Assembly: GCF_024398035.1 (NCBI RefSeq)
Contig: NZ_CP073748.1
Coordinates: forward strand, 1,096,001-1,160,000
Origin: Kordiimonas sp. SCSIO 12603
GTDB lineage: Bacteria > Pseudomonadota > Alphaproteobacteria > Sphingomonadales > Kordiimonadaceae
DNA: 64,000 nt
Reading direction: 5' to 3'
The position numbers were made by a program, and so were the translations under genes. Positions 3,965-26,008 of the stretch are shown one piece after another (the stretch's first letter is position 1; each line of letters begins with the position of its first letter). The notes under the pieces are model-generated. The model saw nothing but the letters and a program-made list of their open reading frames with translations, was not told the DNA's origin and did no database searches.

Positions 3965-4030
3965 ATGGTTCAAGCAGGTGGTGTTGCTGGTGAACAGCTG
4001 CGCGGATTTATTGAGCGCATTGAGCGTTAG
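3965..4030 (+). pseudogene. gapR: Host gapR (DUF2312), 5' fragment cut by island
   Basis: Codons 1-21 of the host DUF2312/GapR gene (MVQAGGVAGEQLRGFIERIE then R) followed by a TAG supplied by the inserted DNA. The ribosome site and upstream promoter are intact. Joining this fragment through the shared TGAGCGT to the fragment at 25757-26008 restores one continuous GapR reading frame of about 102 residues, which shows directly that the island is inserted in this gene. Confidence 0.92.
4021..4027 (+). repeat. attL core TGAGCGT (left island junction)
   Basis: The 7-bp sequence TGAGCGT is present here at the left junction and again at 25756-25762 on the right. It is the only sequence shared at the break and keeps the gapR frame when the two ends are joined. 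The inner flanks TTAGTTATA (left, forward) and TTAGTGATA (right, reverse complement) match at 8 of 9 positions, as expected of recombinase arm sites. Confidence 0.75.
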
Positions 4031-4160
4031 TTATATCTCTTGGAAAAGGACTTATTGAATATCTAAGAGCCATATTTGTAGGCTAATGATGTACAAAATT
4101 AGCTCTATGATTAGATAGAGTATTTATAAATTATAGAAGGCAGCGGAAATATCCGTTGAA
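4031..4160. other. Left-end internal arm region of island
   Basis: This 130-bp noncoding stretch between attL and the replacement gapR contains short palindromes: GCTAAT with ATTAGC around 4082-4104, and CTCTAT with ATAGAG around 4104-4121. Such repeats next to a crossover site are typical binding arms for tyrosine recombinases; this role is inferred from position. Confidence 0.4.
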
Positions 4161-4454
4161 ATGAGAATGGTACAAGCAGGTGGTATTGCCGGTGAGCAAC
4201 TAAGATCCATAGTGGAGCGGATCGAAAATTTGGAAGAAGAAAAGAAGGGTATTGCAGAGGATATTAAGGAGATATACGCAGGCGCTAAAGCCACGGGCTT
4301 TGATCCGAAGATTATTCGTAAAGTTATTTCCTTGCGTAAAATGGACCAAGCGGACCGTCAGGAACAAGAAGCGCTTCTCGATGTGTATATGCACGCTATT
4401 GAAGGCGGAGAACAAGTTCGCCCGACTGCAGAGGTTGTTTCTATTAGTGAATAA
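4161..4454 (+). CDS. gapR: Replacement GapR (DUF2312), carried by the island
   Basis: 97 residues (95 if it starts at the ATG at 4167, which aligns with the host start). GapR is a dimeric coiled-coil nucleoid protein of alphaproteobacteria that binds overtwisted A/T-rich DNA ahead of replication forks and aids topoisomerases. The core [20 protein letters not shown] through [20 protein letters not shown] is nearly identical to the split host protein: about four changes in 60 residues. The sequence matching the insertion site is altered here (GAAAATTTGG in place of GAGCGTCTGG), so the copy lacks the crossover core. It lies 130 bp after the truncated host start and can be read from the native promoter. 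Confidence 0.93.
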   Translation: MRMVQAGGIAGEQLRSIVERIENLEEEKKGIAEDIKEIYAGAKATGFDPKIIRKVISLRKMDQADRQEQEALLDVYMHAIEGGEQVRPTAEVVSISE

Positions 4455-4571
4455 TGACGTATTTAAAGATACTGATTCACTAACTTTATAGAAATTGTCT
4501 GTATTACGGTTTTGTTTGCGTAGTTTTGCATAGCAGTATTTAAAATTGGAACTGTGTAGATAGAAGATGCG

Positions 4572-4595
4572 CAACCATCTTTTCGTAGATGGTTG
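4572..4595. terminator. Hairpin between replacement gapR and ptuB
   Basis: CAACCATCT and AGATGGTTG form a perfect 9-bp stem around TTTCGT in the gap between two convergent genes. The T-run after it is weak, so terminator function is likely but not certain. Confidence 0.45.
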
Positions 4596-4643: not shown

Positions 4644-5510
4644 CTAATCTAACGACCCATTGACAATTAGGTGGTCTTCGAGAGCCATGTACATCACTGT
4701 TCGCCAATGATTGGGACCCTTAGAGTGGTTGTAGATGGGTTCACAAATGGTTTCTGTAACAACTTTAGCGCTGAAGCCTAACTTCAATAATTTTCTCATT
4801 TGGTCTAGAGTGCTAACCAGCTCATTTGCGGCTAGCTTTGCATATCGAGCCTTAATATTAAAATCGATAAAATGCTTACAGGCTCTAGCTCTTTGAAAGT
4901 TCTGCCATTTGAGTGGTGGATTGGTAAAAAATTCTATGGCAGCAGAAGCTTGGTATGGTGGATGATAGGTGGCAAAGACCCATTGTTCATTATAGAAAAT
5001 GTCATCATCCAAAAATGGATGAAGATATTGTTCATTGGGGTTAGATGGGTGGGTTTGTCCTTTTTCACCCATGTTACAGTCGCGACATGAAGGGACTAAA
5101 TTATTGGGAAATACTGAAAATTGGGGAAATTTCGACTTGGCTAAAAAGTGGTCAAGATTTTCAGGGGTACCTATTCCGGCGCAAAATGGACATTCATCTT
5201 TACATATCATTCTTAGTCGATCGTAAACTACACCTGCTGGTTTATCAGCTGGTGTGAAATACTGGGTGTAGAGTTTTTTTAGGTCTTCCTTGGTAAGATT
5301 AGTTGTAATTTTGGTATTGGATGCAGTTACAGGATGAATTCGATGTAACTGAGCTAAAGGTGTAAACGTATCATAGTCGATAGCTTTATTCAGAAGATCA
5401 TTTTTATCGCTAGTCAACTTGCCCTTCAATATCGGGTTGCCTGTAATTCCTGCGATGCAAGCATCTAAAACTTCTGAATAAAGAATGTTTGGTATTGGTA
5501 ATTTAAACAT
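4644..5510 (-). CDS. ptuB: PtuB-like HNH nuclease (Septu-type defence)
   Basis: 288 residues. It carries a zinc-supported HNH nuclease core: CPFC at 107-110, then LDHFLAKSKFPQFSVFPNNL with the catalytic-type histidine near 121, and SCRDCN at 141-146. This is the PtuB-like arrangement. It starts 8 bp after the end of the ATPase gene upstream, so the two are one operon. In Septu, PtuA and PtuB form a complex that degrades nucleic acid in infected cells. No reverse transcriptase is near, so this is not a retron-linked copy. The PtuB name rests on the gene pair and motifs, not on a search. Confidence 0.78.
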   Translation of the reverse strand: MFKLPIPNILYSEVLDACIAGITGNPILKGKLTSDKNDLLNKAIDYDTFTPLAQLHRIHPVTASNTKITTNLTKEDLKKLYTQYFTPADKPAGVVYDRLRMICKDECPFCAGIGTPENLDHFLAKSKFPQFSVFPNNLVPSCRDCNMGEKGQTHPSNPNEQYLHPFLDDDIFYNEQWVFATYHPPYQASAAIEFFTNPPLKWQNFQRARACKHFIDFNIKARYAKLAANELVSTLDQMRKLLKLGFSAKVVTETICEPIYNHSKGPNHWRTVMYMALEDHLIVNGSLD

Positions 5511-5518
5511 TATCAGCC

Positions 5519-7087
5519 TCAGAATGGATTTTTTTTATTTACAATCATAGCTTGAAGAATTGATCTCCCTTCTAAGCCAAGCTGATTATCAAATTTTTCA
5601 AGGATGGCATTGTATGAATGATTTTGATCAACTTCTTTTTGTAAGAGAGCATGAAAACCAGACTTTTCGATTTCTAACTTAAAAACTTCACGTGTTAAAA
5701 TTCCAACATTTTCACCAAATGTTTCTATCGCTGGGCGATCAAATGAAATCTCTTTGCCATATCTATAAATTTTCCAAACACATTTTCTAGGTACTTCTTG
5801 AAGCACTACGGGGGAATGTGTTGCAATAATAGCAACGCCATTTTGCTGTAAAAGTAAATCCGATAGAACTCTTATAAATGCCGATAGTAAGGGAGCATGC
5901 AAATGACTTTCGGGTTCATCTAATAGTACTAAAGTCTTTTCAGTTACAGTAGCTACTAGGCGTGTTATTGTTAACAACACAATTGCATGCCCAGAGCTCA
6001 TACGTCTAAGTGTAGGGATAACTTTTTCTCTAAATATTTCGTCATAGCGGGGCCCTGTATTCTCTCTCACTTCCTGCATAGTCTGTTGAAATTGGTCGCG
6101 TAAGAAATCAAGGTTCATAGAAGAGAAGTTTTGATCTGAACATAGACCTTCAATAGCGGTGAGCCACCTCTTCGTTTTCATTTCGTCTTGAAAGCATGTC
6201 AATAATGCAGTGACACAATCGTCAAGCAAATCTTGAATCCCGCGATGACTATCTGAACTTTGTGGATCTTTGAGGCCTATATAAAAATAACATGTACCTT
6301 TTGCAGGGTCTGGCTGTTCTGATGGAGGAGAAAATGGGTCAAATGCGCTAAAAGAGACAGAGACTAGATTGCTAAAGTAATCTGAACCGATAGGCTGTTC
6401 AACTAAGTTTGCTTCATCTATCAGGATTCCCTTACTTTCTTGAGGGCGGCAAATAGTGTTGATGATACCATTTAATAGAGTGGTTTTACCTACACCATTT
6501 CTGCCTATAAGCGCATGTATATTGGTGTTAGGCTTAGCATCGACTTCAACTTTGAAGCTTACGTCCATTTTGCCAAATAAGTCTTCCTCTGAATGATAAT
6601 ACCTAAAGGTATAATTTGTTAATTCGGCTTCGCCATTTAGAACACGATGAAATTTCCCTTTAATTTCTGAAATAGTATAGCTTCTGAGTAGTGAAGTGCC
6701 GAAGACCCTTTCCTCTCGTATCTTCTCCATAAGAGTTGGCTTTTTTACAAGATCTTGTAAGGCGTCTAGATAATAATTTTTTACCGCATCCGGTACTTGT
6801 GATAGTGCTTTGTAGTAGGAGGTGCCTTGCCCTAGTGAAAAATAACCTTCCCCCAGAGAAGAGAATGTTGTTTCCAATACAGAGCTTGTCGTAATATTTG
6901 CTGTTTGCCCTTTAAAAGCTATTTTGACACCGCCAAGGTCGTGCCTGGTACCTCTTAGGTCAAAGAGGTAAACATAAAAGAAGGTCTCAAATGAATAGTC
7001 ATTCCAATTATCTATTTGTAGATATACTTGACCATGTGCTCTGTCAGGCGGGCTAGTCCCTCGCTCTAATAAATGAAAGGTTAGCAT
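5519..7087 (-). CDS. ptuA: PtuA-like AAA/ABC-type ATPase (Septu-type defence)
   Basis: 522 residues. An N-terminal extension of about 180 residues precedes the P-loop GRNGVGKTT (about 195-203). An RRMSSGHA signature follows near 361, Walker B TLVLLDEPESHLH near 385-396, and the switch histidine in ATHSPVV near 424. This is the overcoming-lysogenisation/SMC-like ATPase build used by PtuA and many defence ATPases. Adjacency to an HNH nuclease gene makes Septu the best reading. The 190-residue N-terminal region before the ATPase is not one I can name and could be a target-sensing part. It is expressed from the 534-bp gap upstream. Confidence 0.78.
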   Translation of the reverse strand: MLTFHLLERGTSPPDRAHGQVYLQIDNWNDYSFETFFYVYLFDLRGTRHDLGGVKIAFKGQTANITTSSVLETTFSSLGEGYFSLGQGTSYYKALSQVPDAVKNYYLDALQDLVKKPTLMEKIREERVFGTSLLRSYTISEIKGKFHRVLNGEAELTNYTFRYYHSEEDLFGKMDVSFKVEVDAKPNTNIHALIGRNGVGKTTLLNGIINTICRPQESKGILIDEANLVEQPIGSDYFSNLVSVSFSAFDPFSPPSEQPDPAKGTCYFYIGLKDPQSSDSHRGIQDLLDDCVTALLTCFQDEMKTKRWLTAIEGLCSDQNFSSMNLDFLRDQFQQTMQEVRENTGPRYDEIFREKVIPTLRRMSSGHAIVLLTITRLVATVTEKTLVLLDEPESHLHAPLLSAFIRVLSDLLLQQNGVAIIATHSPVVLQEVPRKCVWKIYRYGKEISFDRPAIETFGENVGILTREVFKLEIEKSGFHALLQKEVDQNHSYNAILEKFDNQLGLEGRSILQAMIVNKKNPF

Positions 7088-7621: not shown

Positions 7622-9109
7622 CTATTTGATTTCAGTTCCAGATGGTTCTTGTATATTCTTTCTTGGGTGACCGATAGCGCAATAATCAATATAAAACTCC
7701 ACCCCAATCAGGCGTAAAATAATTCGATGAAATAGAACTTTGAGGACTTTAATATCTCTAATTATTTTTACGGTATCAGAATAGTCTGGTGCTGTGCCGT
7801 GAGCGGCTTTGTTTCTTTGTTTCCAAACTTTTTTTTCAGCTTGAGACATATTAAGACCTAATAGTGTAAAGACTTTTTCATTCACTTTGCTTGTAGGTGA
7901 TTGATTAAGTCCACTAGTGATTTTGTTATGTAAAATTTCTCTTACGTCGGCTGGTATTTCAAACTCGTCTAAAACATTGACCATTCTTTGAGAAATTGGA
8001 CGCCAGCTTTCTTTTGTTAGTAGGGTATGATTAACCATACTATCAGGTATTTTCGCATATGCTGTCAGTAATGCTTCAATACAGCCTCCAAAATGCACAG
8101 GCGCTATATGAGCTGGCGCACAAACTGCATGCCAATATTGCCATATTAGATGTTCAAAATCATACTTTTCATAGTGTTCATAAAGCGCCGCTACAAGGGA
8201 AGTTAGTCTATTTCGATCGATTACATTTTCAGTAGTCTCATCCAGGAAAGTTGTCGGCAATGTAGTCATACGAAATGCCTGATCATTCAATGTGTACGGA
8301 CTGATAGATTCAAAAGAAACCAACTGCCAATCACTATCAAAAATACTAAACCCGGTTGAAAGAAGTGGACGACCAAGTGCAAACGATAAACAGTTTCTGA
8401 TCTTCTTTCGTTCTCGGCCGGTTACATCGGAAAGGTACAATATATATCCAGGTTGGACCTTTTGCTTTTCTGACTCAATCCATACTAGGTAAAACTCAAT
8501 TTTACCTAATTGAACAAAAACAGCAGACCGTCCGCCAGATACAGATCTAACTTGATTGGAAATCTCGATCTTTTTCTCACCATCTCCAATGGCGTCAACA
8601 TGCTTACTGGCAGTTTGTTTCTCTACTGGATCAGGCCACATGAATACATTATCATGGACGTTCTCCAACCAATCGACGGTATATGTGCCCGTTACATCTT
8701 CTTTCAGTATAGCGCTTACAGACTGAACAGTAGATTTTACAGTAAGCCATTCTTTTCCGCCACGATCTGTTGAAGTCCTAGAATATGGGTTGACCGCATT
8801 TAGGATAATTTCAAAGCCATTGATATGTCTAAGCTGAACGGATTCTGTAAGCTCTCTTAAGGTGCCAACAGGATATTTATTCTTAAAGGAGGCGGCATGT
8901 CCTTCAGATTTTGTAGTCATCAACAATTTATGGTCTGAATCTCTTTTTAATTTTAGATCCTGCACAGATTGCTGGGTTGGACCAGCGTCAATGACTTCAA
9001 ATGCGCCATGTACAAGCATGTTAGTAAAAGGATCTGAATTAAATACAGTCATAAACGAGTTCCAGTCCAGATAGGCTCTATCATTAATTTGATGTGATAA
9101 ATTTCGCAT
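7622..9109 (-). CDS. ApeA-like HEPN-domain protein
   Basis: 495 residues. The N-terminal ~300 residues resemble the ApeA N-terminal region (LSFALGRPLLSTGFS near 241-255), and the C-terminal half is helical with the HEPN ribonuclease motif R-x4-H in QRNKAAHG (Arg432, His437). ApeA is an anti-phage protein whose HEPN domain degrades RNA after phage sensing and stops host growth. It lies 77 bp downstream of a CD-NTase-like gene on the same strand, probably in one operon. That pairing is unusual: ApeA normally acts alone. The family call is by motif; RNase activity is inferred. Confidence 0.7.
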   Translation of the reverse strand: MRNLSHQINDRAYLDWNSFMTVFNSDPFTNMLVHGAFEVIDAGPTQQSVQDLKLKRDSDHKLLMTTKSEGHAASFKNKYPVGTLRELTESVQLRHINGFEIILNAVNPYSRTSTDRGGKEWLTVKSTVQSVSAILKEDVTGTYTVDWLENVHDNVFMWPDPVEKQTASKHVDAIGDGEKKIEISNQVRSVSGGRSAVFVQLGKIEFYLVWIESEKQKVQPGYILYLSDVTGRERKKIRNCLSFALGRPLLSTGFSIFDSDWQLVSFESISPYTLNDQAFRMTTLPTTFLDETTENVIDRNRLTSLVAALYEHYEKYDFEHLIWQYWHAVCAPAHIAPVHFGGCIEALLTAYAKIPDSMVNHTLLTKESWRPISQRMVNVLDEFEIPADVREILHNKITSGLNQSPTSKVNEKVFTLLGLNMSQAEKKVWKQRNKAAHGTAPDYSDTVKIIRDIKVLKVLFHRIILRLIGVEFYIDYCAIGHPRKNIQEPSGTEIK

Positions 9110-9186: not shown

Positions 9187-10104
9187 TCATTTTGATCCAA
9201 AGTTTTGGCCGAAAAGTGCTTGCCATTTTTGAAGACTTGAATTGCGCCCAGGCTCACTAATCGCGTCATCAACTCTTAATTTAAGAGATCGAATCTGCCG
9301 CTTAAAGTTTTGGTAGTTTACTTCTTCCCAGTTCCTGTTGAAGTTCTCCTTTTCGTAAGCCGGATTTTTGATAAGAGGGGTAGTTTCGTTATGGGAAAGA
9401 TAATTGTCCACTCTTGTGAGAATAGTTTGAAGGCTAGTAGGAATATCGGTAAAGTCCCTCTCTCGTTCATTGTTTCGAATACAGTTACCGATAAGAGTGG
9501 TCATCAATATAGATTTTACTGCGAAAGTCTGCTTATGGTCTCGCATGTATTTAAGAAGTTGTATGACTTTTCTCAGGTTGGCGCCTGGAACAACAGCTTT
9601 TTTCTTTTCAAGCCACATTGCAAATCCATCACCGTCGGTACGCTCATATCTGCCTAAATTACGATTACAAACGAAGTAAGTTTCTTTTCTGAAAAATATC
9701 AACTCGGATTCTTGCCTGATAATACAGGGGACTACATCAAGATGAAAATCTCCCGCATAATCAAGGGTAACGCATCGCGTCTTACGCGAAACCTTGCTTG
9801 AATAAGTAGGACTTTTTTTGAAAGCACTGTATATCTGATCGAGATAGTCTGAAGCTTTCCATCGAGAGTTTGGCTGGAGGAGAACGAGCATATCGGCATC
9901 ATACTCCTTCTTGGGAAGAGGCTGTATCATTGTTCCATGTCTCCAGGACCCTTGCATCTGAATAGAGACAATACGGTGCGACCATTTTGTTTTTTTTAGA
10001 AAAGACTCCACGGAAGTAATGTGTTGTTTCAATCTTATTGTTCGTTTCCGATCGAGTTTGACATGCTGGTTGTAGAACTGATCAAACAGTTTGGTTTGTT
10101 TCAA
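9187..10104 (-). CDS. CD-NTase-like nucleotidyltransferase, minimal form
   Basis: 305 residues. The polymerase-beta fold signature is complete: GSW at 52-54, the metal-binding D69-A-D71, and a third acidic residue in HLDVVP (Asp123). GDGFAMWLEKKK near 155-165 is shared in form with the larger NTase next door (EGFALWFDEQV), so both are CD-NTase relatives. It has no sensor domain after the catalytic and helical core. It is divergent from the CBASS-like pair and 77 bp upstream of the HEPN gene. Most likely it makes a nucleotide signal or nucleotidylates a partner such as the HEPN protein; neither is shown. Confidence 0.75.
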   Translation of the reverse strand: MKQTKLFDQFYNQHVKLDRKRTIRLKQHITSVESFLKKTKWSHRIVSIQMQGSWRHGTMIQPLPKKEYDADMLVLLQPNSRWKASDYLDQIYSAFKKSPTYSSKVSRKTRCVTLDYAGDFHLDVVPCIIRQESELIFFRKETYFVCNRNLGRYERTDGDGFAMWLEKKKAVVPGANLRKVIQLLKYMRDHKQTFAVKSILMTTLIGNCIRNNERERDFTDIPTSLQTILTRVDNYLSHNETTPLIKNPAYEKENFNRNWEEVNYQNFKRQIRSLKLRVDDAISEPGRNSSLQKWQALFGQNFGSK

Positions 10105-10201
10105 TAGTATTTCTCTAAATTTGATAAATGGGTAGTATTTTTACAACTTATAACATACTTAAGTTTCTATATGAAAATTAGGACCATTTAGGAAGCTAAA
10201 T
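10105..10201. promoter_or_regulatory. Divergent control region between two CD-NTase genes
   Basis: This 97-bp A/T-rich gap holds the promoters of both NTase operons. An AGGAAG ribosome site lies before the TTG start at 10202. I could not pick out reliable -35/-10 boxes. The shared region could co-regulate the two systems. Confidence 0.4.
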
Positions 10202-11755
10202 TTGGAAACTGTATTGTTGAATTTTGATCAAGAAGCACTTGACGCTGTTCTTTACGAAATAGCTGACAAGATCCAGTTAAGCGCAACCAAATATGATCTG
10301 GCTAAAGATCGTTATAAAGCTATAGCAGATCACTTGAATGAGAAGGAAAGCGAAGTTGCCAGGTTTTCCCCCCATATTTATCCGCAAGGATCTTTTAGAA
10401 TTCAAACAGCCGTCTCTAACTCTGATGAGAAGGATGAATTTGATATTGATCTCATTCTAGAGATGAATATTGATACGGACAATGATCCGGACGTGGTACT
10501 AGATAGCGTTTGTCGAAGTCTGGATAGAGGGCGTTATAAAGGCAAGGTAGAAAAGAAACGACGATGTGTTCAGGTGCAATATAGTGATATGCACTTAGAT
10601 GTGACACCTGCTGTCTTGTTGAGCAAAGGCTTGCCATCTCGTCCCAGCCAAATTTTTGATTGCCATCCTAACCGAGCTAACCATGTGGAGGCCGCTCCAG
10701 AAGGATTCGCTTTATGGTTTGACGAACAGGTATTGCCTTCTCAACTTCTTGAGAGCCGGCGGTTAGTTGCTAAGGCTAGTGTTGACCCAGTTCCTGACCA
10801 AAAACAACTAGAAGAAAAGCCTCCGAAGCTTGTGGCTCTTCAGTTAATCAAACGTTGGCGCGATATGCAGGATAGCCGTCGAAAAGGCGACGACGAGAAA
10901 ATACCCTCGATCTTACTATCCAAATTGGCTGCTGATTATTTAGAGGGAGGTGATCAAAGTCTCTATTCTGTACTAACGCACATGACTTCCCATCTGATTA
11001 GGCTTATGTCACAAGACTTAGGAGCAGTTCTTAACCCGAGTTACGAACGCGACGTATTCACTGACCGTTGGCCTGGGGCGAGGACGACTTCTGATGCTTT
11101 ACCCTCAAATCAGGAAATCTTCCTTGAAGATTTGAAAGTTCTGAAAGCTAACCTTGATGAAATGGCCGGTGCAAGTCCCAACCGTCATAGAGAATTGATG
11201 AAAACGATGTTTGGCGAACGATCCAGTGCAAGTGGGTCTGCTTTATATGAGGGGAGCAATTTTGCTCAGCAACAGGGCCTTGCAACCGACAAGGATCTAG
11301 TTGAGCGCATTATTGCAGGTGGGAAAGCATTTCTTACATCGCTGTCTCTAGGAACCTCATATGAGAAGCAACCCAAATGGCCTATGATACCCAGTTGTTT
11401 TGTTCAGGTGACGGCAAGTATACACGCAGAAAAACGCGGTCAATTGCTTCGGCAAATTGAAAATGGCGGTGCAGTTGGTATTGGAAAGCATATTTGTTTC
11501 AGGGCAATAGGGCGTTCGATGCGACCGGATGGTTCAACTTTTCCCAGAGGAAGTGTAATTCATTGGCGGGTGACAAACACTGGCAAAGTTGCAGCTCGGG
11601 AGAAACAACTGCGTGGCGATTTTAATGATGATACCGGTATTTCCCTATGGGAGCATGCGGCTTATGAGGGGATCCATTGGGTACAGGCTTATGTCGTTGA
11701 TATGCGCGGAAATTGTATCGGGCAATCTGAGCGGTTTTGCATAGTGGTATCGTAG
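10202..11755 (+). CDS. CBASS-type CD-NTase with C-terminal AGS-C sensor domain
   Basis: 517 residues from a TTG start preceded by AGGAAG. The nucleotidyltransferase core shows GSF at 63-65, D81-I-D83, and HLDVTPAV with Asp133, all residues needed for cyclic-oligonucleotide synthesis. The last ~130 residues match the AGS-C domain (adenylyl/guanylyl cyclase and SMODS C-terminal), with IHWRVTNTGKVAA, KQLRGDF and EGIHWVQAYVVD, a domain thought to sense a ligand and control the synthase. It is followed 9 bp later by a membrane SAVED protein, the expected effector. Together they form a two-gene CBASS: infection triggers a nucleotide messenger that activates the effector. Confidence 0.85.
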   Translation: METVLLNFDQEALDAVLYEIADKIQLSATKYDLAKDRYKAIADHLNEKESEVARFSPHIYPQGSFRIQTAVSNSDEKDEFDIDLILEMNIDTDNDPDVVLDSVCRSLDRGRYKGKVEKKRRCVQVQYSDMHLDVTPAVLLSKGLPSRPSQIFDCHPNRANHVEAAPEGFALWFDEQVLPSQLLESRRLVAKASVDPVPDQKQLEEKPPKLVALQLIKRWRDMQDSRRKGDDEKIPSILLSKLAADYLEGGDQSLYSVLTHMTSHLIRLMSQDLGAVLNPSYERDVFTDRWPGARTTSDALPSNQEIFLEDLKVLKANLDEMAGASPNRHRELMKTMFGERSSASGSALYEGSNFAQQQGLATDKDLVERIIAGGKAFLTSLSLGTSYEKQPKWPMIPSCFVQVTASIHAEKRGQLLRQIENGGAVGIGKHICFRAIGRSMRPDGSTFPRGSVIHWRVTNTGKVAAREKQLRGDFNDDTGISLWEHAAYEGIHWVQAYVVDMRGNCIGQSERFCIVVS

Positions 11756-11764
11756 GGGGTGATT

Positions 11765-12862
11765 ATGAAAGAGGTAGCACTAGCAGTCATTGATTACTTT
11801 AAGACTAAGATGCTGAGGCTCTCACCAGCAGCTCTATATGTTTATGTTGGCATGTTTTTGATAAGTTCTGCGTTATCATTGGGATTGTTTTTCGACTTTG
11901 AACTTTCTTATGGTCCGTTTGGGAGTAGTTTTAGTATCGCAGACCGTCAATCGTGGCCGGTTGGTGTCCAATATGTTTTGTTGTTTTTGGGACTGATTTC
12001 TTTTGGTTATGGATTGATTATTGTTCATCCAAGGCATTTAAAGAGAGTGCAAGAGGCAACTCTGCGGCAGAGGGTTGTTGTGGTTGAGCACCGTGGTTTG
12101 ACTTTCGCGGTGAACAAAGCCGTTTGTGATGCTGTGCCACCTGAATTTCTTGGACGGCGAGAAGAGATATCCATAGATCAGACACCTTATGTTTCAGGGA
12201 ATAGCAGAGTAAATGATCCAGGAAAGTCTTTGGAAGAAGTACTTCATATCCGGCGGGATATTGACGGTCGAGTTAAGGCCGTAGACAAAAACGATGTCAC
12301 GGTGATTTACGGCGGGCTTGCATCGGTGCCATTTACCTTTCTGACTGGTTATTTGATTGACGATGATAATGACGTGGAGGTGATGGACTGGGACCGTTTC
12401 AATGGAAAATGGAAACACATCAAACCTACACAAAGTGAAGTCACAGAAGCGGAAATTATCGGATTGGCTGAAGCAAAGTTTGCTGATGAAGTAATATTAG
12501 CGCTGTCTATATCTCACCGTTGTGATCTTCAGGTTCTTGCCGATGTATTTCCAGGCCTTCCGATTGTTCATATGGATACAGGAGATTACCAGCCAAATAA
12601 TCACTGGGATAAGAAACAGCAAGGTAGGTGGGCTGAGCAGTTTGTGAAGCTTATCCGGACATTGGGCAGTACAAAAAAAATACACCTCACTATTGCTGCT
12701 CAAAACAGCGTAGTTTTTAATCTTGGGCGCACTTATGACAGAAGAAATAGTCCGGCACTTTATGTCTATCAATATGAGCGGGATGAAGACCCAGCTTATC
12801 CATGGGCAATTGATGTACCGCGAACTGGCAATATGGCGAAAATTGTTAGAATTGGAACATGA
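11765..12862 (+). CDS. Membrane-anchored SAVED-domain effector (CBASS)
   Basis: 365 residues from the ATG at 11765, which has GGGGG 5 bp upstream (a GTG at 11759 is an alternative). Two hydrophobic segments near residues 19-43 and 58-80 form a 2-TM membrane part. The C-terminal half from about 180 matches SAVED, the cyclic-nucleotide sensor, with IHLTIAAQNSVVFNLGRTYD then ALYVYQYER near 300-340. It is immediately downstream of the AGS-C CD-NTase. In such effectors, ligand binding to SAVED is expected to drive membrane disruption and cell death. Assignment is good; the ligand is unknown. Confidence 0.82.
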   Translation: MKEVALAVIDYFKTKMLRLSPAALYVYVGMFLISSALSLGLFFDFELSYGPFGSSFSIADRQSWPVGVQYVLLFLGLISFGYGLIIVHPRHLKRVQEATLRQRVVVVEHRGLTFAVNKAVCDAVPPEFLGRREEISIDQTPYVSGNSRVNDPGKSLEEVLHIRRDIDGRVKAVDKNDVTVIYGGLASVPFTFLTGYLIDDDNDVEVMDWDRFNGKWKHIKPTQSEVTEAEIIGLAEAKFADEVILALSISHRCDLQVLADVFPGLPIVHMDTGDYQPNNHWDKKQQGRWAEQFVKLIRTLGSTKKIHLTIAAQNSVVFNLGRTYDRRNSPALYVYQYERDEDPAYPWAIDVPRTGNMAKIVRIGT

Positions 12863-14844: not shown

Positions 14845-14850
14845 ATATAC

Positions 14851-18395: not shown

Positions 18396-19730
18396 ATGGA
18401 TATTACTGAAACATTACTCGCGCTAATTCTTAATCCCCGGGAAAAGTTAGATATTGAATACAAAGACTGGTTGAATCTTGGCGATGGAAGACATAAAGCC
18501 AAGATTGCAAAGTCGATAATTGCTCTTGCCAATCAAGGAGGTGGGTTTTTAGTGATTGGTTTTAGGGAAATAAGAGAAAATCTTTTACCTCAAGAGCGTC
18601 CTAACGACTTGGCTGTAATCGATCAAGACGGCATCAACGCCATTGTTCGAAGATATATCTCTCCTACTTTTCACTGTGAACTTCATATGGCAGCACACCC
18701 TGATACTGGTACTGAATACCCAATAGTAATTGTACCAGGACCCCATCCTGTTCCAGTTATGTCCATTCGCGCGTACGATGGAGAATTGAGGCAGCACACC
18801 TGTTATATGCGTAAACCTGGTCCCTTAAGTGAGCCACCTCGGACAGCTGACGAATGGCGAACAATCTTCGACCAATGTCTTCGCGCAGGTAGAGACGATC
18901 TGCTTGATGCTTTTCGATCAATTATGGCAGGTTCAGTTGCTACTCCAGATATCGATGCGGATCATATGCAGCAGCTATCAGACTTCTGTCTTCAATCAGA
19001 TGATCGTTGGCGAGAGTTAACAGATGAATTGCCCGCAGGGCACGTAGCCCAATTTCCATTGGGGAGCTATGAGTTAGCTTTTTCATTACTTGACGCTGAA
19101 CCAGTGGCTACATTGCCCATGCTAAACGGTCATTTAGATCATGCACGTGGCGTTAATCTATCCGGATGGAGTCCATTTCTCAAACAAACTGATCGGCAAG
19201 CTGCTCCTAGAGTGTTTAATGGTAATGTCGAAGCATGGGTTGGGGGGGGCCAAAATGAACGACTGGAGATGTTTAATCAACCCGCGTATAAAGACTATTG
19301 GAATGTTTCGCCAAACAACCTTCTCTATACGAAACGCGGTTATCATGAAGATAGCATTCGTGATATTGAGGTTGGAACAATTATTGATATTGTTAAGCCA
19401 ATCAAGGTTGTTGCTGAAGGATTATTGTTTGCCTCAAGATATGCTGGTTCAATTGGTTATGAAGGGTCTATTGCAATTATTGTTGGTTTCACAGGTCTTC
19501 GTGGAAGAAGGTTAAGCTCAATTAATATTGCGCGGCCAATTTATGAGGATAGAATTGCAGAGCAAAATGAATGGCGTGGTGAAACTGTTATTGAATTAGC
19601 TGATATAGAAAATAATCTCCCAGAAGTCCTTCATTCCTTCCTTAGTTCTTTCTATGAACTATTTGATTTTTTCCCATTGTCTCTTGCATTGGTCAGAGAA
19701 GCTGTTGAGGAGCTCTTGAATCGTAGATAA
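18396..19730 (+). CDS. AlbA_2/Schlafen-type ATP-binding domain protein
   Basis: 444 residues. The N-terminal 150 residues match the AlbA_2 (Schlafen) fold: LDIEYKDWLNLGDGRHKAKI, then SIIALANQGGGFLVIGF near 41-57 and the PIVIVPGPHPVP strand. The C-terminal 290 residues (including LNGHLDHARGVNLSGWSPFL and a beta-rich block near 300-380) are not a domain I can name. AlbA_2 proteins occur as regulators and as nuclease-like defence or retron-effector proteins. Here it is alone between repeat D and the integrase operon. A defence role is inferred from place; a weak ribosome site leaves the start uncertain. Confidence 0.7.
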   Translation: MDITETLLALILNPREKLDIEYKDWLNLGDGRHKAKIAKSIIALANQGGGFLVIGFREIRENLLPQERPNDLAVIDQDGINAIVRRYISPTFHCELHMAAHPDTGTEYPIVIVPGPHPVPVMSIRAYDGELRQHTCYMRKPGPLSEPPRTADEWRTIFDQCLRAGRDDLLDAFRSIMAGSVATPDIDADHMQQLSDFCLQSDDRWRELTDELPAGHVAQFPLGSYELAFSLLDAEPVATLPMLNGHLDHARGVNLSGWSPFLKQTDRQAAPRVFNGNVEAWVGGGQNERLEMFNQPAYKDYWNVSPNNLLYTKRGYHEDSIRDIEVGTIIDIVKPIKVVAEGLLFASRYAGSIGYEGSIAIIVGFTGLRGRRLSSINIARPIYEDRIAEQNEWRGETVIELADIENNLPEVLHSFLSSFYELFDFFPLSLALVREAVEELLNRR

Positions 19731-19837
19731 AACACCAAGCTCTGTAGATAGTAACTTAATTTATAGGCGTTTGTATGTGATCCATTAACATCAATGTAGC
19801 CACTCTACTCTATAAGCATTAGTTGGATATTTTGACC

Positions 19838-21067
19838 ATGTATGTCTTTAAGCCAAACAGTCAACGTATGAAAAATGCAGGATACACGTCCATATTCCAT
19901 ATTCCGATCATAGTTGACACAAACTATGCCACCATTCCTGAAGCTAATTGGTTTTTACGGGAGCGGGCACTTGGTGAAATCAATAAAAAGGCTCCTGGTC
20001 GAGTTTTGGCCGAAAGGACGATTGTTGAATACGCCTATGATTTAAAAAGTTTTTTTTCGTGGTTGGATGGCAATAAGCAAAAATATCAATGGCAAACAAT
20101 TGATTATTATGGAGTTATTCATGGATTTCAGAATTTTCAAATGTCTAGTATTTCTGCATGTACCGGGCGGGCTTTAAGCAGAAGTTTTGTTTCTCGGCGT
20201 GTCGAAATGGCACTGGATTTTCTGAATTGGGCTCATGATCAAGGATTGCGTTCAAGTGTTAATGTCTTGAAGAAGCTTGGGACTGAAGAAAATGAAAGCC
20301 GACGCACGCATATAAATAAAGTTGATCCACAAAGGAAAGCCAAAGAGTTAGGCCCGCTACCATCTGCTGCCAATGTACAAGATTGGCTGCAGATGGTGGA
20401 AGAGAAGTGTGGTAGAAGTAAAGCTCTTGCTTGTTATACCGTCATTCGTACAGGCTTGAGAGTTTCCGAAATAGCGAACCTTCCAACACATATTATTTCA
20501 GATGAATGCGATACTGATAAAGGTCTTAGGGTTACCATAAAGTATGGGGCGAAGGGTAAAAAGGCGATTGGGGATGAAGCTATGGAAGGTAAGCCAAGAG
20601 AAGTTTATTTCCCACAAGACTTAGTAAAAAAATTGTATAGTTATAAAAATGGTTGGCGAATCAGAAACCTAGCGGTAGGCAAGAAATATAACAAAGAAGA
20701 CAAAGATAGAATGTTTTTGGGTGATGATTTTGGTCAACCATTGAGCCCTCAAACGATAAGGGAAGCTTGGAAGTCTTGTGATAGGCCGTCAGGCTTACGA
20801 TCACCTCATAAAGGCCGCGATTATTGGGCATGTAGGATGCTTTATGATCATATGACTTCTGAGCAATTCAAGGTTCACGAGAAATTACCATATGGTACTT
20901 TGGTAGACGCAGCATTCAATTTTATCAATCTGCGCATACGCCCTCAGCTCGGTCATTCCACGATAGATACTACATTTGTGTATTTAGAATGGTTATTTCA
21001 TCATACAAGTCTTAATGAAATGAATGAGGATTGGCGGGAATTTCTATTGGGGGCTGAATATTCCTAG
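19838..21067 (+). CDS. Tyrosine recombinase 1 of the island integrase operon
   Basis: 409 residues from the ATG at 19838 (an in-frame TTG at 19823 adds five). It cuts and joins DNA through a tyrosine-DNA link. The catalytic set is visible: Arg in VIRTGLRVSEIANL, HKGR as the His-x-x-Arg box, LGHSTIDTTFVYLEW with His and, nine residues on, the nucleophile Tyr. The N-terminal ~150 residues form the arm-binding SAM-like domain. It overlaps the next recombinase by 44 bp in another frame, so the operon is tightly coupled. It corresponds in position to TnpA of Tn554-type elements. Confidence 0.88.
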   Translation: MYVFKPNSQRMKNAGYTSIFHIPIIVDTNYATIPEANWFLRERALGEINKKAPGRVLAERTIVEYAYDLKSFFSWLDGNKQKYQWQTIDYYGVIHGFQNFQMSSISACTGRALSRSFVSRRVEMALDFLNWAHDQGLRSSVNVLKKLGTEENESRRTHINKVDPQRKAKELGPLPSAANVQDWLQMVEEKCGRSKALACYTVIRTGLRVSEIANLPTHIISDECDTDKGLRVTIKYGAKGKKAIGDEAMEGKPREVYFPQDLVKKLYSYKNGWRIRNLAVGKKYNKEDKDRMFLGDDFGQPLSPQTIREAWKSCDRPSGLRSPHKGRDYWACRMLYDHMTSEQFKVHEKLPYGTLVDAAFNFINLRIRPQLGHSTIDTTFVYLEWLFHHTSLNEMNEDWREFLLGAEYS

Positions 21068-23129
21068 ACTTGTAAAAAAACAGCATAATCAAAGTGTTGT
21101 CCGTATCAATACTGCTGCAAAATCTCATTTTTTTGCAAATAATGATAGCATGGATTCATTACATTGGTGGCATGATCGTTTCGATTGTAAGACCAAAGTA
21201 GACCTACGTATATTTGCTGAAGGAGATGGGAAGGATTTCCCATCAATACCTAGTTTAATTGGTGAGCTAGCTCCAGCTATAAAAATATTGACAGTGAACA
21301 ATACTGTTTCTTCGATTTTTGCAAGCCTTGATGTCTTGAAGAGGTTCTGGAGATTTCTTGGATGGTTAGAACAATTGGGTCTTACCATTCCTCACTCGGT
21401 CATGGATATTGATTATAAGGTTGGGCAATTTTTCAAAGATTGGTTGCTGTTTGAGCAACCTGTTAGTCAAAACTCAGCAAGTGCAACAATCAGCTGGGTA
21501 GCTTCGGCAATTAATGCTGCGAGGCGATGTATTGAACCAGGCCAAAATGATATATGGTGGCCTAATATACCTAGAATCAAAGGCGATCTACACGCTGACA
21601 TTGATCCCGATAATATTAGAAAAATTGGGTTTGCACTTCGTTCAGAGATGAGATGCTATAAGCAGGCAAAGATTGAAGGTAGAAAGTTGTTGTCTAAGAG
21701 CATACCTGACCCAAGGGTTTCGGGGTGGGTCAATACAAAACGGAAAAAAACGAAAGAATATCCGTTTCGAGAGAGTGAGTATGAGAATCTCTTAGCTCAA
21801 TTTGCATATGCGACCAAGGACTTCTGCGATAGAAGTATAGAAGATGAAAGTCTTGTTTTTAAAAGATTTTTAGATTCTAATGAATGGAGTAATCCTTCTT
21901 ATCGGTATATGGCTCCCTCATGTTTTAGCGACCCAACTCCTATGTCTAGAGTTTCGTGGTTTTTACCGACTTTTGAAGAAGCGTGTATCAATCTCTGCCT
22001 TTTTTTACAGAAAAGTGGCTGGAACTCTGAAGTTGCCTTTTCAATGGAGGTAGAGAACTGCTTTATTGAATATCCTGATGACAATATGGCTTCTATTTGG
22101 GGATATAAAGGGCGAGCTGGGAAGAAAAAAATCATCACCAGTTCTCAGATGAAGCCAACATGGCACCCTTATCAAGTCTTAAAATATCAGATTGAAGTAA
22201 CCAAGCCCCTTAGGGACGAGGTGAGGATACGCCTAGGAAAGTTGTTGGAGAAAACGGTACGTACTGACGAAGAAGATGCTTTACGTAAAAGATTGCAGAA
22301 AATGTTGAAGTCGCCTTGGTTGTTTTATCGATTAACTCACAATGGCGCTGAGACAGGCAGGATAGGGTGTCTAGAAGATAGTATCAGTCAGTTATCTAAG
22401 GTGCTTAGGAAGGTTTGTCAAAAACATGGTGTATCTACTGAAGTAAAGGACGTTAGAAAAGAAAATGGTGTTAGGCCTTTAAAATTAAGCGATTTTCGAG
22501 ACGGCTATGCAGCCTATGTTTTTGCGAAGAGTGGTGGCAATTTTTTTATACTCCAGCAAGCGCTAAAGCATAATAACACCAGTAGTTTGATTAATTACAT
22601 TCGTCAAAATAGGCATCGGGAGGAAGCGCTATCAATAGCACATAAGATTTTGAACTTCACATGGCGAGATATTGAAAAAAATAAGGTTGTCGATCCTACA
22701 CTTCTTTTTGTGGCAATGAACATCAAAGATATAGAAGAAGAAGATAGGCGTCGACTGTTTGAGTATAGAGAAAGAACGCGTGTTGGAATGGGATGCGGGC
22801 GCCAAGGACATAAGCCTAAAAATATCGCATCAAAAATCTCTCAAGGTAAAAGGTGTTCAATACAAAGGTGTATCTTATGTGACAAAGGTATGATCTTTGA
22901 GGATAGTTTTCAGGGATTAGCTGAAAGATATGGTGAAATACTTTACATAAAAAGCACCACGCCGGTTATAGAATTTGAAGAGTCAGATTTTCAGGATGAA
23001 AAGGCCAATATAGAAATTGCCGTCGATGCTTATTGGGGTAGTAGAAAAACTGAATTCATGATTATGGCGGAGGATAAATTGGAGCAATGTTCAAGAGGGG
23101 AAGTTTATGTATTCGATACCACTGCTTGA
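21024..23129 (+). CDS. Large divergent tyrosine recombinase 2
   Basis: 701 residues. The C-terminal part keeps a recognisable recombinase core: LKLSDFRDGYAAYVFAKSGG (the box-II region, with Arg retained and the usual His replaced by Ser) and LKHNNTSSLINYIR, in which His and Tyr are nine residues apart. The C-terminus has Cys-rich GMGCGRQGHKPK and CSIQRCILC blocks that may bind zinc. The N-terminal half is large and not assignable. It overlaps both neighbours. The start at 21024 is the longest frame and may be up to ~100 bases too early. Comparable to the long middle recombinases of Tn554-like or trio-type elements. Confidence 0.72.
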   Translation: MRIGGNFYWGLNIPRLVKKQHNQSVVRINTAAKSHFFANNDSMDSLHWWHDRFDCKTKVDLRIFAEGDGKDFPSIPSLIGELAPAIKILTVNNTVSSIFASLDVLKRFWRFLGWLEQLGLTIPHSVMDIDYKVGQFFKDWLLFEQPVSQNSASATISWVASAINAARRCIEPGQNDIWWPNIPRIKGDLHADIDPDNIRKIGFALRSEMRCYKQAKIEGRKLLSKSIPDPRVSGWVNTKRKKTKEYPFRESEYENLLAQFAYATKDFCDRSIEDESLVFKRFLDSNEWSNPSYRYMAPSCFSDPTPMSRVSWFLPTFEEACINLCLFLQKSGWNSEVAFSMEVENCFIEYPDDNMASIWGYKGRAGKKKIITSSQMKPTWHPYQVLKYQIEVTKPLRDEVRIRLGKLLEKTVRTDEEDALRKRLQKMLKSPWLFYRLTHNGAETGRIGCLEDSISQLSKVLRKVCQKHGVSTEVKDVRKENGVRPLKLSDFRDGYAAYVFAKSGGNFFILQQALKHNNTSSLINYIRQNRHREEALSIAHKILNFTWRDIEKNKVVDPTLLFVAMNIKDIEEEDRRRLFEYRERTRVGMGCGRQGHKPKNIASKISQGKRCSIQRCILCDKGMIFEDSFQGLAERYGEILYIKSTTPVIEFEESDFQDEKANIEIAVDAYWGSRKTEFMIMAEDKLEQCSRGEVYVFDTTA

Positions 23130-25050
23130 TCGCCCCGATGACAATGATGTAGCTATTTATGATTATGTATTTCAGAATGCCACTAAAGGTTTAACTGAGA
23201 TATTTAGCCCCGATTTTCAAGTTTTACCACATGTAACGTTCTCAAATAATTCATGGGAAATCCCAAAGAAATATTGCTCGTCCCTAACTGTTGATTCTGA
23301 GCGAAAGATAGAATTCGGCCCTCTGTTCTTGTTGCCAGCTGAGGACAACATCAGGGATCTATTTGTCATTCGTGCAAAGACAATTTGTATTTTGTTGAAG
23401 TTTTTTAAAGTAAGAAATGGAAGCCGTACTCATGCCTTGAAGTATGCAACTTGGGCGAGGATGTGCCGTACATTTATTACTGTAATTTCAAAGATACATC
23501 AAAGCGGAATTCACAATGAATATGTATTGAGGGACTTAGGTTATCATTCCTTCTTAAAGTACTTTCACGGCTATGGTGGCCGTTCAATTGTAAGCAGATT
23601 GATAGCAATAAACGCCGTAGGCCGTTTAGATGACTTCCCAGAAGATAAAATTGGCTATGAGTTAGAAAGACAAGGTCAAGCCATTGTCTGTGATGAAAGC
23701 AATTCCGTTAGCTATCAGCCCTATGAGAATGATGAGCTGGCAATTATGGGGTGGGTAGCCTCTTGGGTTTCCAAAAATTTGACGGAAAAGGCTCTGTCAA
23801 TGCTATCTGCGGTTAAGCGTGTAGAGTTAGAAACGTCATCTGAAAAGAATAGGTATAAAAAAATATCTGAGGGCCTTCTGGCTTTGCAAGAAATTAACGA
23901 ATGGCCAATTGAGCTAAATTTGACAACGACAAATAGTAAGGTCAATTGGAAAAAACAATTGCGATTGAACCTTAAGGGGGAGGTGTTAACTTTATTTCGT
24001 ATTATACAAGCATGCAATGTAGTCATCTTGAATATTTCACTGGGGGCTAGACGATCAGAATTGCTTAATCTATCGTTTGATAATCTTTTAGATACCTATG
24101 CTGGTACACCTATCATACGGGGACAAATAGAAAAACATAAAGATACTTCGGTAGATCATTTATGGCCGGCGGCAGATGTCGTGATGGATGTTTTAGAACG
24201 TCAAAGAAAGTTGAAAGTGGCATTTGAGGAATATTCCGGGAACGAGTATCAAGACTCTCTCTTTTTTCCCGGTCGAGCAGATAGTCAAAAGGTAAAGAAC
24301 TTTACTTCATTTTTTTCGACATTTAGCAAAAACATAAAATATGCAGAAAAGACAATGGCTAGTCACGTTGCAGGGTCTATTCATGGTCATCGCTTCCGCT
24401 ATTCCTTTGCGAGAATTATTAGCTTGGCGGTTACGTCAGGCCCTGCAATTTTACAAAAAATTTTTGGTCATCATGATTATAGCGAAAGTGTTGGATATGC
24501 ACTTTCTAATAAAGGCCTATCGGGAGACATTGATAAAATTACTAACGAAGTAAGATATCTAATGGCGGAAGAAATGATTACGACCAATAAACAAGCTAGT
24601 GGTCCAGCAAATAGCAAGATAGATAGTACAATAAACGCAGTGTTGGTACGTCACGGTAAAAATGAGTTGGGCGTAGATACTATGGAGGAAGCTATAGAAA
24701 TATTAGCGGCTGCCTCATCTTCTATGCACCTAGTTAGACCAAATGTGATATGTACTAAACTTCTAAATCAGGTTGGCGAGTGCTCTAAAACGGGCGGATA
24801 CCCGAATGTCTCGGCATGTTCGGTGAACTGTAGCCATCGATACGAAATGGCTGCTGCCCGTGATGATGTTATACAAAGTATTGAACTTCTTTTGTTAGAA
24901 ATCGACAGAAACACTGACATTAACTCTCGTGTTTTTCAAAAAGCTCAACTTGAAACACAGTTCAGTAGATTTGCTGATGTTAAAGCCAAGTATGAACACG
25001 ATAAGCGTGTAATGAGATTTTACGATCAAATAAAAGAAATGGAACTGTGA
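23107..25050 (+). CDS. Tyrosine recombinase 3 of the island integrase operon
   Basis: 647 residues; GAGGGG sits before the ATG and the gene overlaps its upstream neighbour by 23 bp. Catalytic residues: Arg in SLGARRSELLNLS (about 315), Lys in IEKHKDTS (about 345), HRFR as the His-x-x-Arg box (428-431), and IFGHHDYSESVGYAL with His455 and nucleophile Tyr464 nine residues later. A Cys-rich tail (CSKTGGYPNVSACSVNCSHR, about 565-585) follows. All five catalytic positions are intact, so this one and recombinase 1 should both be active. Confidence 0.85.
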   Translation: MYSIPLLDRPDDNDVAIYDYVFQNATKGLTEIFSPDFQVLPHVTFSNNSWEIPKKYCSSLTVDSERKIEFGPLFLLPAEDNIRDLFVIRAKTICILLKFFKVRNGSRTHALKYATWARMCRTFITVISKIHQSGIHNEYVLRDLGYHSFLKYFHGYGGRSIVSRLIAINAVGRLDDFPEDKIGYELERQGQAIVCDESNSVSYQPYENDELAIMGWVASWVSKNLTEKALSMLSAVKRVELETSSEKNRYKKISEGLLALQEINEWPIELNLTTTNSKVNWKKQLRLNLKGEVLTLFRIIQACNVVILNISLGARRSELLNLSFDNLLDTYAGTPIIRGQIEKHKDTSVDHLWPAADVVMDVLERQRKLKVAFEEYSGNEYQDSLFFPGRADSQKVKNFTSFFSTFSKNIKYAEKTMASHVAGSIHGHRFRYSFARIISLAVTSGPAILQKIFGHHDYSESVGYALSNKGLSGDIDKITNEVRYLMAEEMITTNKQASGPANSKIDSTINAVLVRHGKNELGVDTMEEAIEILAAASSSMHLVRPNVICTKLLNQVGECSKTGGYPNVSACSVNCSHRYEMAAARDDVIQSIELLLLEIDRNTDINSRVFQKAQLETQFSRFADVKAKYEHDKRVMRFYDQIKEMEL

Positions 25051-25592
25051 TAGTGACTAGAATAACGATTTCCGCATGGGAAGAATTGGAGTTACGTACC
25101 CATGAACTAACTGAAAAGGAAAAAATGGGCTTAATAGATTTCCAGATCATTATTCCTGATAATGCTGGTTTTTCTACAAAAAAAAAATATGAGATCATAC
25201 TTGCTATATTTACAGCTATTAAACATTCTAAAAAAGAAGCTGGTGTGCATGGCAATGAGGGTAAAGAACGAATAACAAAGGCATCTCTACTAAGAGCAGC
25301 TAATGTTAAAGAAACTACGCTAAAAAATCCATCGCACAAGTTAACTAGAGCTGTCGTCGATGCATGGTTGCAAAAGAACCAGAGGCCTTCAAAGGCAATC
25401 CTAACGAAAAATGAACAAACAGAACTTGCTGCAGCAAAAGATGCGTTATTGTTGGCTGTTGAACAGCAAAACATTAAAGATATTGAAAACCGTCAGCTAC
25501 GACAGCAGTTGATTGAAAAAGAAGAAGAGATAGTCAGGCTTAATACTCTAATTTCTACGATGAATAAAACAGTGTTATACCCTTCTGGGTAA
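25047..25592 (+). CDS. TnpC/DUF6262-like coiled-coil accessory protein
   Basis: 181 residues. It starts at a GTG overlapping the stop of recombinase 3 by 4 bp. The middle ERITKASLLRAANVKETTLK resembles the helix-turn-helix-like DUF6262/TnpC segment, and the last ~60 residues form a coiled coil (LRQQLIEKEEEIVRLNTLIS). Such small proteins close the recombinase operons of Tn554-like elements and aid orientation or efficiency of integration. The family call is by layout and the short motif only. Confidence 0.62.
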   Translation: MIVTRITISAWEELELRTHELTEKEKMGLIDFQIIIPDNAGFSTKKKYEIILAIFTAIKHSKKEAGVHGNEGKERITKASLLRAANVKETTLKNPSHKLTRAVVDAWLQKNQRPSKAILTKNEQTELAAAKDALLLAVEQQNIKDIENRQLRQQLIEKEEEIVRLNTLISTMNKTVLYPSG

Positions 25593-25755
25593 TGTGCTTG
25601 CACGTTCTTTCAAAACGATACTGATACACTATTGCATGGACTACCTGTGATGTAGTTCTCATCACAGATAAGAACTACATCACAGGTTTAATAAGTCCGA
25701 TTTATTAAATAAGATATTGATTTAGTTATATAAATCTATATGATGTTATCACTAA
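25593..25755. other. Right-end noncoding region of island
   Basis: Between the last operon gene and attR. It contains the 17-bp perfect inverted repeat (separate entry) and a 60-bp A/T-rich stretch ending at the crossover core. The stretch should be the right arm region for the recombinases. Confidence 0.5.
25643..25687. repeat. Perfect 17-bp inverted repeat near attR
   Basis: ACCTGTGATGTAGTTCT (25643-25659) and its exact reverse complement (25671-25687) surround an 11-base spacer. The following bases have only a short T stretch, so it is a poor classical terminator. It lies 69 bp inside the right island end, where it could be a terminator for the recombinase operon or a recombination or excision structure. 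Confidence 0.8.
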
Positions 25756-25762
25756 TGAGCGT
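25756..25762 (+). repeat. attR core TGAGCGT (right island junction)
   Basis: Second copy of the junction heptamer; see attL at 4021-4027. To its right the host gapR frame resumes with CTGGAAGAAGAG. Confidence 0.75.
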
Positions 25763-26008
25763 CTGGAAGAAGAGAAAAAAGGTATCGCAGAAGATATCAA
25801 GGAAGTTTACGCAGGCGCTAAGGCTGTTGGCTTCGATGTGAAAATCATGCGTAAAGTAATTTCACTGCGCAAGATGGATCAGGCGGACCGCCAGGAACAA
25901 GAAGCGCTTCTAGATGTTTATATGCACGCTATTGAAGGCGGCATGCGCCCTGAACCAGCTGGTACTGGTGTTGGCGAAGCTAATGAAGGCGCGGGTGACG
26001 AAGAATAA
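25757..26008 (+). pseudogene. gapR: Host gapR (DUF2312), 3' fragment cut by island
   Basis: The open frame continues host gapR from Glu-Arg: [20 protein letters not shown] through [11 protein letters not shown] and an acidic tail [13 protein letters not shown]. It has no start codon in frame nor ribosome site, so it is not expected to be translated. It is followed by the native gapR terminator. Long runs of DNA match the island-borne gapR (for example 20 identical bases around 25899), making it both proof of the insertion site and a possible partner for homologous recombination with the copy at 4161. Confidence 0.92.

Follow-up and report, generated by a model that had tools for sequence, protein, structure and literature searches.

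A four-gene recombinase island that splits gapR and carries a complete gapR in Kordiimonas sp. SCSIO 12603

We analysed a window of 64,000 nucleotides (nt) from the one-contig genome of Kordiimonas sp. SCSIO 12603 (NCBI RefSeq assembly GCF_024398035.1, contig NZ_CP073748.1, positions 1,096,001 to 1,160,000, forward strand), in which gapR, described in the part of the literature drawn on as encoding an essential regulator in Caulobacter (PMC7498317), is divided by an island of 21,728 bp measured from core to core. The host gene is broken after codon 21, and an exact 7-bp repeat, TGAGCGT, stands at both edges of the island (Table 1). The 63 nt that make up the 5′ part, preceded by the leader of the host gene, end in the left copy, so that the frame at 3965-4030 runs through host codons 1-21 into a TAG of island origin; the 3′ part starts with the right copy and is open to its stop codon. 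These are the only two occurrences of TGAGCGT on the + strand of 3901-26100. Fused in a script at the common TGAGCGT, the fragments give an in-frame GapR of 102 amino acids (aa), as an earlier note on this DNA had claimed for the pieces at 3965-4030 and 25757-26008; the joined gene matches the gene of a congener. GC content is 39.8% between the cores, compared with 47.6% and 46.4% in the window flanks.

The empty site is found in that congener, a genome of the same genus that we label G011, where a single intact gapR lies at the equivalent position with the same two neighbour genes, an FAD oxidoreductase and an Asp/Glu racemase that are 95.6% and 98.6% identical to those of the present genome. 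The DNA is collinear across the joint over 3,266 bp at 94.2% identity, the 137 bp compared upstream of the host gapR are the same in both genomes, and over a 76-codon core the joined host gene is 99.1% identical to the G011 gene in nucleotides and 100% in amino acids. The G011 locus is the empty site, and the host gapR of SCSIO 12603 was destroyed by insertion. Both outer fragments match the one G011 gene, G011 has one gapR match in all, and the earlier proposal of gapR as a landing site is borne out, the gene being whole there and split by 21.7 kb here. A gapR match is present in 28 of the 29 family genomes searched and, among the matches listed, gapR halves separated by an island occur in this genome only; its own three matches at E <= 0.001 are the two host fragments and the carried gene. 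At the level of the class, 274 of 385 genomes gave a gapR match; details of single matches come from the part of these that was listed, and weak gapR fragments in other class genomes may be hidden. Two fragmented family assemblies, G020 (contigs C173, C212 and C246) and G006 (contig C287), gave additional gapR matches that contain stops or lie in adjoining pieces; these could be decayed second copies.

Table 1. Features of the split gapR locus, with positions numbered from the first letter of the window
Feature	Position	Strand	Basis
5′ fragment of host gapR	3965..4027	+	matches intact G011 gapR; TAG from island follows
attL core TGAGCGT	4021..4027	+	exact repeat of 25756-25762
Complete replacement gapR, 97 aa; alternative start ATG at 4167	4161..4454	+	Pfam GapR_DNA-bd E 1.6e-33
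Candidate defence protein PDC-M01B	4644..5510	-	PADLOC E 1e-92
AAA ATPase, PDC-M01A / PtuA-like	5519..7087	-	PADLOC E 5e-201 and 2e-184; Pfam AAA_21
Weak Apea-like HEPN match	7622..9109	-	Pfam E 9e-4, below curated cut-off; PADLOC no match
CBASS-type cyclase (SMODS)	9187..10104	-	Pfam, PADLOC
Second CBASS-type cyclase (SMODS + AGS_C)	10202..11755	+	Pfam, PADLOC
SAVED-domain effector, two-transmembrane (TM) type	11759..12862	+	Pfam, PADLOC
Schlafen AlbA_2-domain protein	18396..19730	+	Pfam E 1.4e-6; PADLOC no match
Recombinase gene 1, IntA-like, 414 aa	19823..21067	+	Pfam Phage_integrase; alignment with Microvirga
Gene 2, 701 aa, Tfp/GinC-like by position	21024..23129	+	alignments; first catalytic Arg missing
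Recombinase gene 3, IntB-like, 647 aa	23107..25050	+	Pfam Phage_integrase; alignments
Gene 4, 181 aa, Srap/GinD/TnpC-like by position	25047..25592	+	38-43% identity, ~50 aa, to Microvirga fourth genes
attR core TGAGCGT	25756..25762	+	exact repeat of 4021-4027
3′ remnant of host gapR	25756..26008	+	open to stop; matches G011 gapR

Just inside the island, 133 bp from its left end and oriented as the host gene, lies the gapR-like gene that the earlier note had taken to be complete, as the Pfam match confirms; it is the sole intact gapR found in the genome. Its identity to the host gene over the 76-codon core is 88.2% in amino acids and 78.1% in nucleotides, short of the approximately 93% that the note had given, and closeness is confined to the last 75 nt (8 mismatches, compared with 9-23 for 25 family genes). 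The first 153 nt have 42 mismatches to the host (family 24-51; Fisher p 0.004 against the last 75 nt), and the total of 50 is ordinary for the family (41-74); the carried gene may be a mosaic. Conversion of the close 3′ tract from the present host gene after insertion is unlikely, as the tract still has 8 mismatches and the host gene is nearly unchanged relative to G011. Identity is 53.9% at third codon positions and 90.1% at first and second positions together, and because divergence is concentrated at third positions the carried gapR looks to be under selection at the protein level. Its C-terminal tail differs from that of the host. In a tree it groups with the genes of the host and of G011, the support being moderate (86/78), its identity to chromosomal gapR genes of the family is at most 86% in amino acids over the match, and its GC content (44.9%) lies between those of the island and of the host gapR (49.5%). 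We place it, from these comparisons, as a diverged member of the gapR lineage of the host family, and a phage origin was rejected with the best phage GapR match at just 63% aa. Promoter-like matches in the region numbered 4 against 2.6 expected, which says little on expression.

GapR-like genes were also seen elsewhere. The congener G024 has a second gapR (locus L031, contig C6) in a region that is phage- or plasmid-like by eye, with no tie to an att site. On the Microvirga plasmid NZ_CP069357 (locus L077), a DUF2312 (GapR-family) gene at 511739-511999 lies near repC, about 23 kb from a recombinase operon, and looks like plasmid backbone.

The attachment core itself is missing from the carried gene. 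A sequence search found no TGAGCGT in it, each of the three codons overlapping the core is altered, and the core differs at 4 of 7 bases, which none of the 25 family genes reaches (maximum 3). Widened by 15 nt on either side, the core region has 13 mismatches in 37 nt, again reached by none of the 25 (maximum 10), and the same holds for the mismatch excess at 20 nt on either side. One of the changes replaces Arg at host codon 21 with Asn. All 28 family sequences have Arg at this position, as do 28 of the 29 from the class (one has His), and Asn occurs in 0 of 57; the class set, made up of best-scoring loci, is non-random, and the family set takes in the second G024 copy and one partial gene. 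Across positions 3-83 of the carried GapR this Asn is the sole residue missing from both sets. We read the Arg-to-Asn change together with the loss of the core as a probable loss of the attachment site from the replacement copy; since the core is absent and the Arg changed, the carried gapR should neither be a target nor recombine with attL or attR. A near-invariant Arg changed in this way is also a natural variant for work on GapR structure and function.

At the right end of the island, the recombinase operon consists of four overlapping genes that end about 163 bp from attR, with all cargo to the left. Genes 1 and 3 have what we take to be the R..HxxR..H..Y residues of tyrosine recombinases, placed by eye. 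Gene 2 gave no family match at E 0.001, and its AlphaFold model is poor (mean pLDDT 42.5). Scanning genome contigs with a Cys-rich stretch of gene 2 returned 84 pattern matches and 2 confirmed loci, both in Microvirga, where the operons are collinear relatives with genes 1-3 at 26-33% identity. The two Microvirga operons are 85% identical to each other over 5.8 kb, the similarity stopping near the end of the fourth gene, and in the one record of the two whose neighbouring genes were annotated, a Kiwa KwaB-like protein is listed beside the operon. A gene-2 profile run against the 385 class genomes found its own genome and three weak partial matches (~63-71 positions), and viral contigs scanned with IntB and with alignments A2, A1, A4 and A5 held no confirmed relative. 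With IntB as the query, the operon proved rare in the samples searched. Both island ends start TTAGT-ATA, in an alignment whose score was reached by 233 of 2,000 shuffles. Between the operon and attR, at 25643-25687, there is an inverted repeat of 21 nt with arms 3 nt apart and 95% complementary, possibly a terminator or a recombinase site.

The same layout recurs around a different gene in islands on rhizobial plasmids, whose four genes resemble the gapR-island operon in size and order. In Bradyrhizobium betae (L070), Mesorhizobium NBSH29 (L078) and plasmid pC of Ancylobacter polymorphus (L079), recombinase gene 1 is preceded by the first 13 codons of a DUF736 gene, and a whole DUF736 gene lies beyond gene 4, followed by the rest of the split one. 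The 8 bases AACGGCTT are common to both ends in all three islands and are not present in the three DUF736 copies. For L079 and L078, the 5′ fragment and the remnant join into one DUF736 gene like the intact genes of three other plasmids, and TTAGGTCA was seen at both ends of L070 and L078, an observation given without a statistic. A fourth intact case is Ancylobacter plasmid pA (L100), with DUF736 split at AACGGCTT and a complete copy present. The pA and pC elements of A. polymorphus ZM13 are both 6,569 bp and 100% identical, copy included, yet they sit in two different DUF736 genes, their flanks being 73-75% identical over 251-279 bp. At the level of sequence comparison, an identical element in two different genes shows that the DUF736 copy belongs to the mobile unit, and the pair offers a small natural system for asking whether transposition needs the target copy. 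Intact cases account for four of the six records of the DUF736 set that were examined. L101, from a Bradyrhizobium SK17 plasmid, is incomplete: the copy is fused to the remnant in different frames and at least 2 genes of a second operon follow, which probably reflects a tandem insertion and recombination between copy and remnant. L102 is also incomplete, no 5′ part of DUF736 having been found within its fetched 10.4 kb.

Profile comparison of the gapR-island and DUF736-island operons with hhalign gave 99.6% for gene 1 and 96.1% for gene 3, but 3.7% for gene 2 and 0.6% for gene 4; by this measure genes 1 and 3 are recognisably related, and genes 2 and 4 appear to correspond by position only. 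The wider operon family is large, gene 3 of L079 matching 238 plasmid records (in 69, the match spans 80% or more of the gene); we fetched 17 regions from 60 listed of the 238. A comparison of left with right flanks at 16 operon loci, based on the best seven matches per locus (all seven places being taken for L092), recovered the DUF736 pairs in L070, L078 and L079, and 10 of the 16 loci, including L090 and both from Microvirga, gave no clear answer. L090 and L092 have repeats of ~180-200 bp left and right of the operon at 78-80% identity (L090, 4413-4590 and 15332-15508, 179 bp; L092, 4972-5171 and 14201-14400, 204 bp).

Overall, we favour, with a probability of about 0.8, a mobile four-gene tyrosine-recombinase island that is site-specific in gapR and carries a complete, core-less gapR that keeps GapR supplied. 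IntA, its partner without the first catalytic Arg, IntB and the small accessory protein would move the island, and the recombinases, to judge from position and family, would insert it at the gapR core in codons 19-21. The carried gene follows the core closely and points the way the host gene did, and the upstream 137 bp are unchanged, so that the host sequence left in place ahead of gapR may drive its expression; the GapR supply would thus be kept. If the island moves like a strand-biased circularizing element (SE), with no empty site regenerated, the host gapR would never be restored, the carried copy would be needed, and the cell would then depend on the island. We infer rescue of GapR function because the carried gene is the only intact gapR, because its divergence lies at third positions, and because four DUF736 islands have the same layout; that a distant set of islands treats DUF736 alike suggests that such islands bring a spare target gene by strategy rather than by accident. 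More tentatively, and short of even odds, these islands could represent a class of proteobacterial four-gene recombinase islands, each with a recombinase-proof copy of the conserved, even essential, gene that it destroys; insertion would do no harm and yet bind the cell to the island, where the sole functional version of the gene would now reside. The gapR island shows that a landing site can lie within a conserved and possibly essential gene and need not be the end of a tRNA gene. Sites of the gapR kind stay the same across a lineage, and loss of an island with the sole functional version of a gene is difficult, so that defence genes on it would persist more easily.

Several observations weigh against this reading. 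The targeting of gapR rests on one insertion, and a search with IntB in 296 order genomes and 385 class genomes found only itself. The mismatches of the carried gene around the core are matched by 3 of 25 family genes when 6 or 10 nt on either side are taken, and are not unusual at those widths; the change from Arg to Asn may reflect drift, or may impair GapR. The DUF736 recombinases are remote from those of the gapR island: gene 1 is 24% identical, identity for gene 3 is 29% across 170 aa, gene 2 matches over 37 aa at E 0.003 and gene 4 gives no match. The DUF736 copy of L070 retains 7 of the 8 core bases. Among the plasmids listed there are one to five DUF736 places each, and Mesorhizobium elements with one type of conjugation cluster are described, in the part of the source drawn on, as all having DUF736, often duplicated (PMC8627217). 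With duplicates this common, an adjacent DUF736 pair is no proof alone; the split, the common core and the identical pair of elements are. Finally, frames beside the operon in L088, L091 and L092 look by eye like halves of a parB-like gene, and, among the matches listed, no parB-like copy was seen within 7 kb to the left or 9 kb to the right, so that a target copy is no general requirement.

It is improbable, in our assessment, that the carried gapR is ordinary cargo that came to lie beside a split gapR by chance. Phages and plasmids of alphaproteobacteria do carry GapR-like genes, which we found in 152 of 50,697 phage records, in the phage-like region of G024 and next to repC on the Microvirga plasmid, but the phage copies are much more distant from the carried gene than the chromosomal genes of the family, with which, on the host branch, it groups. 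Its place directly behind the break, its orientation, its standing as the only intact gapR found and the repetition of the pattern by DUF736 islands with another gene also argue against chance. Somewhat less credible still is the idea that the carried GapR rescues nothing and works for the island, as a variant nucleoid protein replacing that of the host and shifting DNA topology or gene expression to the island's advantage. The changed, nearly invariant position and the different C-terminal tail would fit such a role; most of the protein is nevertheless constrained, and the DUF736 islands show the same layout around a different gene.

We give least credence to a history in which gapR was duplicated first and the island entered one copy, the other now appearing island-borne. 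The position of the carried gene in the tree, next to the genes of the host and of G011, would agree with this, as would the unusual closeness of the last 75 nt to the host, but G011 has a single gapR match, and the copy lies inside the attL-attR interval with a base divergence of 22% over the core and a GC content intermediate between island and host gene. The DUF736 copy, moreover, belongs to an element of which two identical examples stand at different sites.

The cargo of the island includes genes that match PADLOC and Pfam defence families, in agreement with the earlier description of a defence island. Two SMODS cyclases and one SAVED two-TM effector provide the CD-NTase and adjacent effector by which CBASS is recognized. 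The two cyclases, of different subfamilies, stand back to back at 9187-12862, with the effector behind the second and the weakly HEPN-like gene adjoining the first, and the region may represent two systems.

Among known systems, taken from the parts of the published descriptions drawn on here, Tn552-II of Staphylococcus is the closest precedent and resembles the gapR island in having several recombination genes (tnpABC), a 7-bp site in its target gene and a homologue of that target on board (PMC12486829), a trait shown here by gapR and, in the distant relatives, by DUF736. Its authors propose that the target-gene-like gene, tgl, may rescue the disrupted function. Compared by description, the two differ in the number of recombination genes (three in Tn552-II, four here), in the targets (a plasmid gene and a yolD-like gene, here gapR), in the cargo (beta-lactamase, here defence genes) and in the carried homologue, since an att copy (i-att2) persists in tgl at a comparable position and the carried gapR is without the core (PMC12486829).

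SEs are site-specific and have the gene order IntA, Tfp (which has no full RHRY motif), IntB and Srap (PMC10214605). The gapR-island operon has the same order and residue pattern, judged from alignments with the two Microvirga operons and from motif positions placed by eye. SEs end in imperfect inverted repeats of 13-19 bp, and recombination of attL with attR leaves no empty site and gives a strand-biased circle; unlike in SEs, the cargo here separates attL from intA, the operon occupies the right end, and a target-gene copy is present, of which the part of the SE description drawn on makes no mention (PMC10214605). The SE authors also report no Tfp or Srap homologues in Alphaproteobacteria. 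Against the SE of pAQU1, whose genes we located from annotation, hhalign gave a probability of 47% for IntA and at most 3% for the other pairs, in a comparison of three-row profiles with single sequences that has low power. On these values we do not assign the island to the SEs.

GInts (ginABCD) likewise combine three recombinase-like genes and a small one with variable cargo and site specificity (PMC5385486), and the operon at 19823-25592 has three tyrosine-recombinase-like genes and one small gene. Six of the 11 GInts analysed in that work sit in ssb with the product unaltered, and in P. aeruginosa a duplicated ribonucleotide reductase alpha gene has a pair of them at its end (PMC5385486). 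Membership was rejected on two defining features: the GInt operon lies at the 5′ end, followed by cargo and a short AT-rich 3′ end, and GInt repeats are imperfect and 10-17 nt long, whereas here the operon is at the right end and the repeat is an exact 7 bp (PMC5385486). The recombinase in trio (RIT) archetype, as described in part, comprises three recombinases of ~315-410 aa, each of which has the catalytic tyrosine, and lacks a fourth gene; with proteins of 414, 701 and 647 aa and a fourth gene, the gapR island falls outside it. Islands in dusA and other genes restore one end of their target, which they supply at the crossover. The gapR island also sits inside a housekeeping gene but instead holds a whole second gene, and the host gene stays split.

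A literature search for gapR as an integration site of genomic islands returned nothing relevant by title, and among the best matches for DUF736 and DUF2312 no title described these islands, in searches too broad to show absence. A mobile element that carries a copy of its target gene is already in print in Tn552-II; the form described here combines a four-gene recombinase island, a whole, core-less replacement of its target, a nucleoid-protein gene as that target, and a cargo of defence genes.

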